Shown in pieces: positions 9,789-35,342 of a DNA stretch of 36,395 bases; positions within the stretch are counted from its first letter, which is position 1; the number at the start of each line of letters is the position of its first letter. This DNA comes from Candidatus Saccharimonadota bacterium (GTDB taxonomy: Bacteria; Patescibacteriota; Saccharimonadia; Saccharimonadales; Saccharimonadaceae), in assembly GCA_017421325.1 (NCBI GenBank), contig JAFOJO010000015.1, positions 1-36,395 of the forward strand, written 5' to 3'. The notes below the pieces were generated by a model, which was not told the origin of the DNA, made no database searches, and saw only the letters and a list, made by a program, of their open reading frames with translations. The position numbers were made by a program, and so were the translations under genes.

Positions 9789-11159
9789 ATGGGTAGGAAA
9801 TACGACTTTGATTATATAGTTATCGGTAGCGGCCCTGCCGGTTCTGCTGCTGCACTAGCACTCGCCAAAACCAAAAAACGCGTCGCCTTAGTGGAAAGCA
9901 AATATTTTGGCGGTTCCAACATTAATACTCGCGACATCCCTTACAGTGTTACATTGGATTTCGCCCACACTTATCACAAAGCTTCTCATTTTCCCGAGTT
10001 CAGTCATCAAGATTTTTCTTTTAATTTTCCCACCATCATCGCACACCAATTAAAGGCCATCATCCAATCTGGTGGCGGCAATAATCAAAAGTCCTACACC
10101 GACGCTGGCGCCATCTGTCTGCACGGCTATGCTAATTTTTTAGACGCCAACACCATCGCCATTGGCGATCAAAAGTTCACTTCCTACAATTTCATCATCG
10201 CTACCGGCTCACATCTTAATACCTCCGCCATTGCCGGCACCGATGCCGTCAATTACCTTACCCCAGACACCGCCATTAAAATCCGCCGTTTACCCAAGGC
10301 CGTACTTATCGTTGGCGGCGGCTCCACCGGCTGCGAGATCGCCGAATATTATGCCAAGCTCGGCGCCAAAGCCATCATTATGGAAAAGTCCAGTCGCATC
10401 CTCCCGCGCGAAGACAAAGAAGTCAGCGCTACCGTTACCGATTATTTCACCAATAATCTCGGTATCATGGTACTCACCAACAGCAAAGTCATCGCTTTGG
10501 AGCAAGACGACGCCTCCAAACGTGTCATCTTTCAAAATGACCACACCGAAAAAATGATCCGCGTAGATTGCATCGTACTCGCCACCGGCAGCGAACCCAA
10601 CACCGACCTTGGTCTCGAAAACGCCAAAGTCAAATACACCACCACCGGCATCAAAGTAGACAAAACCTTCCAAACTTCCGCTAAAAACATCTACGCCATC
10701 GGTGATTGTATTAGTAGCGACTCTTCCACCGAACGCGCAGATTACGAAGGCAACCTCCTCGCTGTTAACATTATCAACAAAACCAAAAATACCGCCAACT
10801 ATACCGGCTTCGCCCGCGTTACTAACACCTGCCCCGCCGTCGTCACTATTGGCCTTAGCGAAGACGACCTTATCCGTCGCAAACGTAAATACAAAAAATC
10901 TATCGTTTACCTAAAAGACACTCCGGCCAGCAAAATCTTCAACGTCCGACACGGCTTTGTCAAACTTCTTACCGACCGCAGCAATCATATGCTGGGTGGC
11001 TGCATTGTTGCACCTCATGCCACTGCCATGTCTGGCGAAATTGCTTTGGCCGTGCGTCACCATCTTACTGCATTAGAACTCGCCAGTACTCCGTCTATTA
11101 CCAACGATTTTAGCTATGTCATTAAACTAGCCGCCAAAAAATTAGTCAAGAAAAAATAA
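9789..11159 (+). CDS. FAD-dependent oxidoreductase of the lipoamide dehydrogenase/mercuric reductase family without active-site cysteines
   Basis: A 456-residue flavoprotein. It has an N-terminal FAD Rossmann motif (VIGSGPAGSAAA, 12-23), a second GG segment, an ATGS block, an NAD(P) Rossmann motif (VGGGSTGCEIAEYYAKLGAKA, read in two parts), and YAIGDC for FAD, with a C-terminal dimerisation domain from ~340. Family members have GGTCLNVGCIP here; this protein has GGSNINTRDIP (41-51), so both redox cysteines are replaced (Asn44, Asp49). The C-terminal HPT..SE dyad is also missing (TPSITNDFS). It can probably bind FAD and NAD(P)H but not perform disulfide exchange, so electrons must go elsewhere (quinone, O2 or a protein). 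It is the last gene of the three-gene set. Confidence 0.85.
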   Translation: MGRKYDFDYIVIGSGPAGSAAALALAKTKKRVALVESKYFGGSNINTRDIPYSVTLDFAHTYHKASHFPEFSHQDFSFNFPTIIAHQLKAIIQSGGGNNQKSYTDAGAICLHGYANFLDANTIAIGDQKFTSYNFIIATGSHLNTSAIAGTDAVNYLTPDTAIKIRRLPKAVLIVGGGSTGCEIAEYYAKLGAKAIIMEKSSRILPREDKEVSATVTDYFTNNLGIMVLTNSKVIALEQDDASKRVIFQNDHTEKMIRVDCIVLATGSEPNTDLGLENAKVKYTTTGIKVDKTFQTSAKNIYAIGDCISSDSSTERADYEGNLLAVNIINKTKNTANYTGFARVTNTCPAVVTIGLSEDDLIRRKRKYKKSIVYLKDTPASKIFNVRHGFVKLLTDRSNHMLGGCIVAPHATAMSGEIALAVRHHLTALELASTPSITNDFSYVIKLAAKKLVKKK

Positions 11160-11170
11160 CCAGCCCTAGA

Positions 11171-11204
11171 TTCAGCTTGAGTTAGGGGGGTAACTCAAGC
11201 TGAA
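11171..11204. terminator. Perfect 14-bp hairpin after the oxidoreductase gene
   Basis: Arms 11171-11184 and 11191-11204 with a GGGGGG loop. No U-tract follows on the plus strand, so it is a 3' stabiliser or a weak terminator. Confidence 0.55.
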
Positions 11205-11240
11205 CTTAAAACTGATTATTAATTTTGAACTCAAAGTTCG

Positions 11241-17807: not shown

Positions 17808-17835
17808 TTCACAAATAATTTTGGCGTGATATAAT
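17808..17835 (+). promoter_or_regulatory. Promoter of FISUMP gene B and its RNA leader
   Basis: TTCACA (17808-17813), 16-nt spacer, TATAAT (17830-17835). The predicted transcription start near 17842 coincides with the first paired base of the leader RNA. Confidence 0.7.
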
Positions 17836-17841
17836 TAAAAC

Positions 17842-18031
17842 GCAACATTCTAATTTAATAAACGAACCAAAGGTTTTTATTAACCTATAGAGATATATTC
17901 GCAATATAATTGGCACCGTAAGGTTTCCAATTTGCGGATACTATAGGTTCACTTTGGTTCACAAATTAGGATGTTGCACCCCCTTGCGGTGCCATTTTTG
18001 TATGACTACCCCGTTTACACAAAATGGCATC
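17842..18031 (+). ncRNA. Structured 5' leader RNA with long-range pseudoknot, copy B
   Basis: Helices seen by eye: P1 17842-17856 with 17963-17977 (15 bp, one G-U); P2 17864-17872 with 17952-17960 (9 bp); P3 17882-17890 with 17941-17949 (9 bp); P4 17900-17904/17909-17913 with 17932-17936/17927-17931 (10 bp, 4-nt bulge). The apical loop segment GGCACCGTAAGG (17912-17923) is complementary over 12 nt (one G-U) to CCTTGCGGTGCC (17982-17993), outside P1: a pseudoknot. P5 17988-17998 with 18021-18031 (11 bp, one G-T) overlaps that strand, so the two pairings exclude each other. ATTTTTG follows the pseudoknot strand. Copy C at 35141-35307 keeps all but P3, with sequence changes. Probably cis-regulatory; I do not recognise the class. 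Confidence 0.75.
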
Positions 18032-18066
18032 GCAAAGACCAGACAACTAAACAGGGTAATACATAT

Positions 18067-19752
18067 ATGAGCCAAAGTAATCCAACAAATAATTATACAG
18101 ACTTCTACTATCATTTCTTCCGCAATGTTCTTCTAGCCGGTGTTCTCTTGATTCTTATTTCCGCCCTAATTTTATCCTCTCTCCACGGCTCTGCTACAGG
18201 CTCAGGTAGTGGTACGGATAGTCTCACTATATCTATCTCTTCTGCCTGTACGCTAAGCAGCGTGGTTAATACAGAACATAGTACCAATACCAATGTAGGT
18301 ACATATACTCCCAACATAGGTAAGACTACCATTACTACCCTATGTAACGATGGCAATGGCTATGCAGTATATGCTAATGGATATAGTAATAATGAAGAAG
18401 GCAATAATAAACTCATCAACTCTTCCTATCCACAATATAGTATAGATACAGGATTAGCTACGAGTGGATTAACATCTACTTGGGCCATGAAACTAAATAA
18501 TATAGAAAATGATCCTTCTCCTACTCCACCTACTATAGAAAGTGATTATAATAATACATATGGTATAGTACCAAGCTATTGGATTAAAGTAGCCTCACGT
18601 GCTTCTGGTACTACGGATATGGCACAGGGGTCATCCTTTACTACTACTTATGCTGTATATACTAGCTCTTCCCAATTTACTGGTACTTATCAGGGGCAGG
18701 TGAAGTATGTATTAGTTCATCCATACAGAAATGATAGCACAATAACTACTGTACCAACCTTTGAAGAATCTTTTGCTTTAGGCGGTAAAGAAAAAGTTAC
18801 TATAAACGGAACTGATTTTTATAAAATGCAGGATATGGGTAGCCTCATATGTGAACGCATTTCTAATACCAATGAAACACCGACTACTCAACTAGCAGAT
18901 ATTAGGGATAATAAATTATATTGGGTAGCCAAACTAGCTGATGGCAAATGTTGGATGACACAAAACTTAGACTTAGATATAGGCGGAACTAACACTATGG
19001 CTTTAACGTCAGAAAACACAGATATCAGTACTAATGCTTCTGGTAGTGGAATATATGCTAATGGATATACTGAGAATAATGGAGTTTGGACTTGGAACCC
19101 GGCCAGTACTGCAATCACCTCTAGCAGTATCGTGAATTATGGCAACAATACCGTTTCTAACTGGAGCAACAATAATTCCACCCCAACCTCTGCTGAAGGT
19201 GGAGATACTTATTTCTACACTTCTGGCAACGATAACAATGATAAGAGATACGATTCCTTAGAGCTTTGCGAGAAAGACCATACTGAAACAGATTGTTTGC
19301 ATTATCATGCCGGAAATTATTACAGTTGGACAGCCGCCATAGCCTCCAATACCTCTAGCAGTATTAGTGCAAACACCGCCATAGCAGGCAACTCCATTTG
19401 CCCTAGAGGCTGGAGATTACCTTATACTTCTACTACAGACAACTCTTACAATGAATTTGGTAGATTGTTCTATGGCTACAATATTACGAATAATCTAGCC
19501 AATAGTACTGGTTCCGTAGGTTACAAATCTGGTGGCTTTAATGCTTTAAGAACCTCCCCTTTGTGGTTTGTACGGTCCGGCTACATCTATAATGGCACGC
19601 TGGCCGAGCCAGCAGCGGGCGGCAACTACTGGTCTAGTACGGTTACCAATAGTACCGACGCTTACAACCTCCTCTTCTATAGTAACAGTATCAACTTAGC
19701 CGGCAGCTACAGCAGGGGCGGCGGGAGGTCTGTACGTTGTATTGCTCGTTAA
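18067..19752 (+). CDS. FISUMP-domain surface protein, copy B (complete)
   Basis: A 561-residue protein. Start at 18067 is chosen because the ribosome-binding AGGG is upstream and an earlier in-frame ATG at 17971 falls inside the RNA leader. Residues 1-19 are cytoplasmic, 20-41 a transmembrane anchor (NVLLAGVLLILISALIL), and the rest exterior. An N-terminal beta region with two conserved Cys and NGYAVYA runs to ~230. FISUMP blocks: DGKCWMTQNLDLDIGG (292-307), ICPRGWRLP, and a C-terminal lectin-like end NYWSS...GRSVRCIAR (520-561). Role: probably a surface adhesin or receptor; ligand unknown. Codons are AT-rich except over the last ~300 nt. Expression probably depends on the leader RNA. Confidence 0.9.
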   Translation: MSQSNPTNNYTDFYYHFFRNVLLAGVLLILISALILSSLHGSATGSGSGTDSLTISISSACTLSSVVNTEHSTNTNVGTYTPNIGKTTITTLCNDGNGYAVYANGYSNNEEGNNKLINSSYPQYSIDTGLATSGLTSTWAMKLNNIENDPSPTPPTIESDYNNTYGIVPSYWIKVASRASGTTDMAQGSSFTTTYAVYTSSSQFTGTYQGQVKYVLVHPYRNDSTITTVPTFEESFALGGKEKVTINGTDFYKMQDMGSLICERISNTNETPTTQLADIRDNKLYWVAKLADGKCWMTQNLDLDIGGTNTMALTSENTDISTNASGSGIYANGYTENNGVWTWNPASTAITSSSIVNYGNNTVSNWSNNNSTPTSAEGGDTYFYTSGNDNNDKRYDSLELCEKDHTETDCLHYHAGNYYSWTAAIASNTSSSISANTAIAGNSICPRGWRLPYTSTTDNSYNEFGRLFYGYNITNNLANSTGSVGYKSGGFNALRTSPLWFVRSGYIYNGTLAEPAAGGNYWSSTVTNSTDAYNLLFYSNSINLAGSYSRGGGRSVRCIAR

Positions 19753-26782: not shown

Positions 26783-26800
<18 letters not shown>

Positions 26801-26957
26801 AAAGCAAAAAATATAATTTATTATATTTTTTGGTTTTGGATACCGCCCGGCTAGATCCCCCATCGTGCCGGGTGTACCAAAAGCCAAAAATATAACTTGT
26901 TGTATTTTTAGGTTTTGACTACCTCCTGGCTAGTCCCCTATCGTGTCAGGTATCAAA
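26783..26957 (+). repeat. Tandem 79-bp repeat derived from the tRNA-Arg(CCG) 3' end and its terminator
   Basis: The 23-nt tRNA 3' end/flank at 26783-26805 recurs exactly at 26862-26884, and a degenerate third copy begins at 26940. Period 78-79 nt. Each of the two full units also carries an A/T-rich terminator hairpin (first one 26806-26832) and a GGCTAG-containing segment. Confidence 0.85.
26806..26832 (+). terminator. Terminator of tRNA-Arg(CCG)
   Basis: AAAAAATATAAT - TTA - TTATATTTTTT, an A/T-only stem ending in a T-run; a diverged copy follows 79 nt later. Confidence 0.65.
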
Positions 26958-35105: not shown

Positions 35106-35134
35106 TTGCAATAAACCCCGCATCAAGTTATAAT
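35106..35134 (+). promoter_or_regulatory. Promoter of FISUMP gene C and its RNA leader
   Basis: TTGCAA (35106-35111), 17-nt spacer, TATAAT (35129-35134). TATAATTAAAA is shared exactly with the copy B promoter. Confidence 0.75.
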
Positions 35135-35140
35135 TAAAAT

Positions 35141-35307
35141 GCTACATTCTAATTTCCAAAACTAAGCATTTTTTAATAATGCTAGTTACACAATTTAATG
35201 GTACCGTAAGGAATTTTAATTGTGTAACTTGCTTAGTTGGCAATTAGGATGTAGCACCCTTGCGGTGCCATTTTTGTATTACTACCCCGTTTACACAAAA
35301 TGGCATC
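35141..35307 (+). ncRNA. Structured 5' leader RNA with long-range pseudoknot, copy C
   Basis: Helices: P1 35141-35154 with 35242-35255 (14 bp, one G-U), with a compensatory A-T to T-A swap at the third pair relative to copy B; P2 35160-35168 with 35230-35238 (9 bp, sequence unrelated to copy B); P4 35185-35195 with 35218-35228 (11 bp, unrelated sequence). P3 has no counterpart. Apical loop GGTACCGTAAGG (35200-35211) is complementary over 12 nt (two wobbles) to CCTTGCGGTGCC (35258-35269). P5 35264-35274 with 35297-35307 overlaps this strand. The 22-nt loop gives room for the pseudoknot. Confidence 0.78.
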
Positions 35308-35342
35308 ACAAAGATTAGATAACTATATAAGCGAGGTAAGTG

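Follow-up and report, generated by a model that had tools for sequence, protein, structure and literature searches.

The window (the whole 36,395-nt stretch of DNA analysed here) contains a predicted gene for a 561-aa protein that matches TIGR02145 with an E-value of 1e-13, above the family cut-off, and possesses a hydrophobic N-terminal segment. This gene is preceded by a structured leader, a second copy of which lies upstream of a paralogous gene (Table 1). A third FISUMP-like gene was found at the contig start (positions 23-1552), with its 5′ end and any leader beyond the contig. The source bacterium is tiny and probably host-dependent. Saccharibacteria in culture grow on bacterial hosts and rely on proteins of their surface, and to our knowledge hardly anything has been published on gene regulation in Saccharibacteria.

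Table 1. Features of the leader, its second copy and the associated genes in the window
Feature	Position	Strand	Basis or remark
Extended -10 promoter box, TGA-TATAAT	17827..17835	+	P1 stem starts 6-7 nt further on
P1, 5′ strand, at the very probable RNA 5′ end	17842..17856	+	MFE fold
P2, 5′ strand	17864..17872	+	Fold; partner 17952-17960
U-rich one-sided 5′ bulge, GUUUUUAUU, putative hinge	17873..17881	+	Bulge statistics over 162 copies
P3, 5′ strand region	17882..17904	+	Fold
Strand A (pairs with B), apical GGCACCGUAAGG with a GNRA-like tip	17912..17923	+	A:B covariation
P1, 3′ strand	17963..17977	+	Fold
T5′ (GCACC), overlapping the base of P1, local partner of B (17988-17992)	17976..17980	+	Order homologue covaries
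Strand B, CCUUGCGGUGCC, pairs with A, C or T5′	17982..17993	+	(Nearly) invariant in own genome
U5 tract	17995..17999	+	Five U in 163 of 163 genus copies
Segment D, GUAUGACUACCCCGUUUACAC, P5 loop, complementary to the Shine-Dalgarno region	18000..18020	+	D:E covariation
Strand C, P5 3′ strand, partner 17984-17998	18021..18035	+	Fold, B:C duplex test
Segment E, Shine-Dalgarno region, CUAAACAGGGUAAUAC	18047..18062	+	D:E covariation
Putatively regulated gene, exported FISUMP-domain protein, 561 aa	18067..19752	+	TIGR02145
-10 box TATAAT, second copy	35129..35134	+	
Strand A GGUACCGUAAGG, second copy	35200..35211	+	
Strand B and U5, second copy	35258..35275	+	B itself 35258-35269
Strand C, second copy	35297..35311	+	
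Paralogous gene downstream of second copy, cut by contig end	35343..36395	+	

The minimum free energy of the leader (17835-18085) is -80.4 kcal/mol, corresponding to a z-score of -8.0 against shuffled sequences, none of 200 being as good. The best pseudoknot-free fold consists of a long P1-P3 hairpin (17842-17977), with strand A at its tip, and a second helix, P5 (17984-17998 with 18021-18035). Strand B (CCTTGCGGTGCC, 17982-17993), which is directly followed by ATTTTTG, is complementary to strand A (GGCACCGTAAGG, 17912-17923) at 12 of 12 nt, including one G-U pair, and the isolated A:B duplex has a predicted energy of -25.8 kcal/mol. Opening of the A tip costs about 8 kcal/mol, and formation of P5 yields about -22 to -25 kcal/mol in L001 and about -19 kcal/mol in the second window copy. 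The energies of A:B and P5 are comparable and would allow exchange between the two.

An earlier sequence-only reading had proposed that B pairs either with the A tip or with the P5 strand. Sequence and fold bear this out, and both options are present in the other copy in the window, as that reading had stated; its 11-nt pairing (17988-17998 with 18021-18031) is part of the longer P5. Absent from that reading was a third partner for B, namely GCACC at 17976-17980 close by, with which the pairing is weak in the window.

Copies in the genome, the genus and the order

A covariance model extending from A to B identified 43 copies of the element in the 861-kb genome to which the window belongs, two of which (L027 and L028) are identical in the region printed; a similarity search with the window leader found 40 places. 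The sequence-only reading had treated the structure as a local leader feature; it is indeed a leader feature, but actually one of these 43 copies and part of an order-wide element. In each of the 40 copies examined in this genome, exactly 5 nt separate a TANAAT-like box from the start of P1. Genus-wide, 138-143 of 162 copies (85-88%) retain the extended TG, and 160 have G as the second base of the stem. Given this promoter-to-stem spacing, the 5′ end of the transcript very probably lies at the base of P1. The stem sequences differ among copies, and the P1 arms pair at -33 kcal/mol in cis versus -13 kcal/mol between copies. The bulge is one-sided, with a median over 162 copies of 16 nt in the 5′ strand opposite 0 nt in the 3′ strand, and contains UUUU in 80%. 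Strand B is invariant or nearly so across the copies of this genome, and strand A is GGYRYCGYRAGG with few exceptions; its variants retain the pairing, since each variable position has either Y facing a G or R facing a U in B.

Of 174 genomes in the genus, 70 carry the element, with at least 24 copies in the copy-richest ones. A gene in the same direction almost always lies 3′ of the element, and 90% of the downstream genes in the genus, versus 30% of control ORFs, encode an N-terminal membrane- or signal-like segment according to a simple hydropathy count. Other copies precede genes for related or different exported proteins, and in the window's genome most of the genes behind the element are predicted to encode exported proteins, several with FISUMP domains. 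Standing before about 43 genes of this genome and occurring in many other Saccharibacteria, the element is probably a switch of wide distribution that turns exported proteins on or off. Several copies (L014, L017, L019 and L021-L024) were considered as orphans without a gene, which was rejected, most of them having a gene 220-245 nt downstream instead of at the usual distance of about 70 nt. These long-spaced leaders contain two more repeated hairpin families (…GCATAATTCATTATG… and …AGCGGGTCCTGTCACTCATATTC…). Contigs often end at a short and often identical distance 3′ of a copy, e.g. 116 nt in three G005 contigs; such ends, seen in G005 contigs C4, C22 and C24 (L070, L110) and in several G000 contigs, appear as if the assembly had broken at the sequence that the copies share.

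Restriction of the element to the genus proved wrong: weak outside matches (L103 and L105-L107), also considered as ordinary terminators, show the full architecture, and that assignment was rejected as well. A second model detected the element in 57 of 355 genomes of the order, usually with 1-6 copies per genome; at least 12 families and, of the 150 genera sampled, 31 are represented. This order-wide form comprises a -10 box, 5 nt, UGUCUUAA...UUAAGACA and then CC-UUGC-GGUGUC-GUUUUU, with the tip AAAACGGCACCGCAUAAG. It contains the conserved stretches GGCGAAAG and GUUUGUGAAUGG, whereas only A and the U-rich bulge are conserved in the genus form. Two copies of the order-wide form are arranged in tandem, about 480 nt apart, in L232, and a LOOT RNA (RF03000) is located near another (L265:2744-2861). 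Outside the genus, the genes behind the element include those for OmpA-like proteins, DUF4352 proteins, DNA methylases and a type IV secretion pilin, indicating that the regulon comprises more than a single protein family.

When 84,980 named species genomes were scanned for an exact pattern, the hits were Candidatus Saccharibacteria, for the most part gut MAGs from goat, sheep and other sources, together with a few rabbit MAGs labelled Firmicutes, in which the architecture is identical. The rabbit-gut contigs are labelled Clostridia, Oscillospiraceae, Dysosmobacter or Bacilli (L164, L168, L170, L176, L177, L192, L208 and L221) and, because of the identical element architecture in those inspected, are probably mislabelled or misbinned Saccharibacteria.

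Alternative pairings and their covariation

Besides the promoter-locked 5′ end and the association with exported-protein genes, five pairings (A:B, B:C, T5′:B, A′:A and D:E) are kept when copies are compared. A:B was evaluated in 62 copies from 9 genomes, whose loci were collected with 3′-half or whole-leader queries, the query used for the non-window genomes lacking A. In these copies, 94% of the cells are paired and five pairs have changed on both sides; none of 500 shuffles was as good, and control helices obtained by sliding paired in 38-54%. Joint changes of A and B were found in L047 and L049 (CCAUGAGG/CCUCGUGG), L056 (UCGUGGG/CCCGCGG) and L084 (CCACUAGG/CCUAGCGG), and L059 carries a matched one-base insertion in both strands (CCGUAAUGG/CCAUCGCGG). 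The order-wide form gave similar results, with 98.7% of 468 cells paired (slid controls, 39-60%) and 42 cells with double changes versus 10.1 in shuffles, none of 500 shuffles reaching 42. In L271, a two-base insertion is matched in A, B and T5′.

Each B forms a better duplex with its own A than with partners from other genomes (0 of 2000 permutations), and among copies that differ within one genome the own copy fits best (12 of 5000; JAFWNY, G014 and JAFRKK), so the A:B pairing is made in cis. The corresponding permutation test in the order-wide form gave 0 of 5000. These and the following permutation counts are not strict probabilities, because the copies are related and kinship inflates the tests. 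Plain chance pairing was rejected on the basis of the z-score of the leader fold, the covariation counts and the cis duplex tests; by sequence comparison, A:B is an evolved pairing in cis.

The pairing also extends to the U-tract. In the order-wide form, the base before the tract swaps among C-G, G-C and U-A together with its partner in A, and the first U changes from A-U to G-C in five sequences, so that A:B pairing runs into the U-tract. U5 is present in all 163 copies of a genus set that required A:B complementarity (the R1 and R2 search models also contained A:B), though its A-tract partner is not strict.

B has further partners. In the order-wide form, T5′ and B form a GACACC/GGUGUC hairpin (T) of 5-7 bp in nearly all copies, with a loop of 4-5 nt and placed just before U5, which covaries in cis (0 of 5000). 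A has its own upstream partner, A′, in this form, and A′:A likewise covaries (0 of 5000); the control pairing A′:B showed no covariation in the same test. In the genus, the cis-versus-other-genome duplex test gave 9 of 2000 for B:C. In 27 of 39 genomes, B:C exceeds the pairing with shuffled partners in the majority of copies; it is weak or absent in the other genomes.

In the same duplex test, D:E gave 0 of 2000, and the control pairings A:C and B:E showed no cis effect. Examples are CCUCACUUAG/CUAAGUGAGG in L078 and UACGCCUUU/AAAGGCGUA in L081, and in these two loci, L089 and others the pairing is positioned at the Shine-Dalgarno/start region. In the window, GUAUGACUACCCCGUUUA lies opposite UAAACAGGGUAAUAC (-14.9 kcal/mol); the mean energy of D:E is -12 kcal/mol, and the Shine-Dalgarno region can be covered. 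Copy by copy, D:E is significant in only 38%, and on this comparative evidence it is the weakest of the pairings.

Possible mechanism and alternative explanations

On balance, we incline to the interpretation that the leader belongs to an uncatalogued family of Saccharibacteria RNA switches acting in cis, in which A:B would serve as a conditional terminator and P5 and D:E would come into play after read-through. In this scheme, termination and the order of events are what we infer. Transcription would start at the base of the long P1-P3 hairpin, which would form first and display strand A at its tip. As soon as B and the U-tract have been transcribed, A could pair with B. Since this helix is flush with U5 and runs into it, the expected effect on RNA polymerase is conditional intrinsic termination, as seems probable to us, or a strong pause. 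Strand A may be restrained by its own tip hairpin, which in the order-wide form is A′:A, and the neighbouring T5′ may restrain B; the winner would decide read-through. In the read-through mRNA of the window's genus, C may displace A from B to form P5, and segment D in the P5 loop may then pair with E, the Shine-Dalgarno region, so that translation would be controlled as well. P5 was also considered as a classical antiterminator, which was rejected because its C strand is transcribed after the U-tract. Mutually exclusive, conserved pairings in a switch-like leader and a terminator-like helix followed by a U run had been suggested by the sequence-only reading, and both have gained support from covariation in many genomes; its link to translation is upheld by the covariation of the P5-loop segment with the Shine-Dalgarno/start region.

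With P1-P3 formed, A:B would be a pseudoknot, in which the tip of a hairpin of about 40 bp must be bent back sharply to its own base. The hinge on which the rod folds back may be the one-sided bulge or, in copies elsewhere that have one in its place, a small 5′ hairpin. This demand on the fold and the equilibrium fold without pseudoknots, for which P1-P3 plus P5 is best, count against the scheme, as do the weakness or absence of B:C in about a third of genomes and the low share of copies with a significant D:E.

It is also conceivable, though unlikely, that the T5′:B hairpin followed by U5 is the terminator and that A:B is an antiterminator removing B. In the wider order, T is a textbook stem before U5 and covaries with B (GACAACC/GGUUGUC in L271). 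However, in the window's genus, where U5 is invariant, T has only 4-5 bp and is mismatched in 24 of 163 copies, with A:B and U5 kept; T is also broken in L250 and L269, both of which keep A:B. In addition, A:B would have to form after B emerges, later than the neighbouring T. These losses, together with the 1-2 unpaired nt that T leaves before the U-tract and the flush position of A:B, favour A:B over T as the helix acting on the polymerase.

A switch of translation alone, without termination, in which A:B and P5 would decide whether D covers the ribosome-binding site, is rather improbable. It would be consistent with the cis covariation of D:E at the Shine-Dalgarno/start region and with the enclosure of D by P5, but A:B and U5 persist outside the genus, where many gene distances are short and C was neither sought nor evident, and the conservation of U5 would be left unexplained.

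The invariance of B in the window's genome, where every A fits every B, would also suit A:B pairing in trans, either from one copy to another or with a small RNA, by which the 43 genes would be coordinated. This is distinctly improbable, since no other A or B sequence, and thus no separate complementary RNA gene, was found in that genome outside the elements, and differing copies of one genome favour their own B, as described above. That the element is mobile or a recombination site (a MITE or attC-like site), with the pairings reflecting terminal or site symmetry, is very improbable: it is a dispersed multicopy repeat near which contigs often break, but the stems of different copies are unrelated in sequence and nevertheless remain complementary, the element is almost always accompanied by a promoter at constant distance and by a gene of the same orientation, and an informal look at the flanks inspected revealed no constant ends or target duplications.

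Returning to a conditional terminator formed by A:B, a broader proposal, to which we would give somewhat less than an even chance, is that promoter-locked pseudoknotting attenuators of this kind occur throughout the order, respond to one common signal and have been amplified in the gut genus to control at least 40 exported proteins, with species-specific C and D:E expression platforms behind a constant A:B core. If one regulatory RNA precedes about 43 genes in 0.86 Mb, this would be an unusually dense RNA regulon and would suggest that the surface repertoire is under the control of one signal. Competition between the strands is sufficiently clear for direct testing, and the covariance models make the family searchable.

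Relation to known regulatory RNAs

No Rfam 15 family matched the element at the gathering score, the only matches elsewhere in the loci being tRNA, RNase P and LOOT, and no description of it was found in the open-access literature (subscription journals and bioRxiv were outside the scope). The element resembles attenuators and the expression platforms of riboswitches in its location in a 5′ leader, exclusive helices sharing one strand, a U-tract and a cover for the Shine-Dalgarno region, and the trp attenuator in the competition of several strands. In particular, a G+C-rich helix (A:B) is followed by a U run, and covarying exclusive helices (B:C, T5′:B and A′:A) share the same strand. It differs in that the remote 5′ arm, which pairs beside the U-tract, is the tip of a long promoter-locked hairpin, in having neither a leader peptide nor a known aptamer, and in the occurrence of 43 copies before one gene class. 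Like an intrinsic (Rho-independent) terminator, it contains an A-tract and a G+C-rich helix flush with U5; unlike one, A:B would be a pseudoknot, because about 55 nt separate its two arms, the 5′ one of which lies within another hairpin.

The T-box riboswitch is also an attenuator, and UGGCACCG in A resembles the T-box sequence, UGGNACCG. However, A lies inside a stem, C precedes GGC in many copies and no specifier domain was recognised. The T-box model (RF00230) gave no match at the gathering score and none up to an E-value of 10 for the window leader; identity with the T-box was rejected for this reason and for the wrong layout and the C in place of U in many copies. The preQ1, SAM-II and THF riboswitches form a pseudoknot between a loop and a 3′ strand near the Shine-Dalgarno sequence or the U-tract, as the element may do, but its rod is much larger, and the element has no Rfam match. 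As the stem sequence is hypervariable, there is no evident conserved ligand pocket in the genus form. RNA thermometer designs lack the A:B and U5 parts, and D:E of the element can cover the Shine-Dalgarno region. Neither tRNA, as in the T-box, nor temperature is supported as the signal.

Two further repeats were observed in the window. Directly 3′ of the tRNA-Arg(ccg) gene, positions 26783-26938 contain two 77-nt tandem copies, 86% alike, each consisting of the 3′ end of tRNA-Arg followed by a long AT-rich hairpin. An inverted repeat with 41-nt arms that are 73% complementary (11144-11231) lies beside a tRNA-Met gene.
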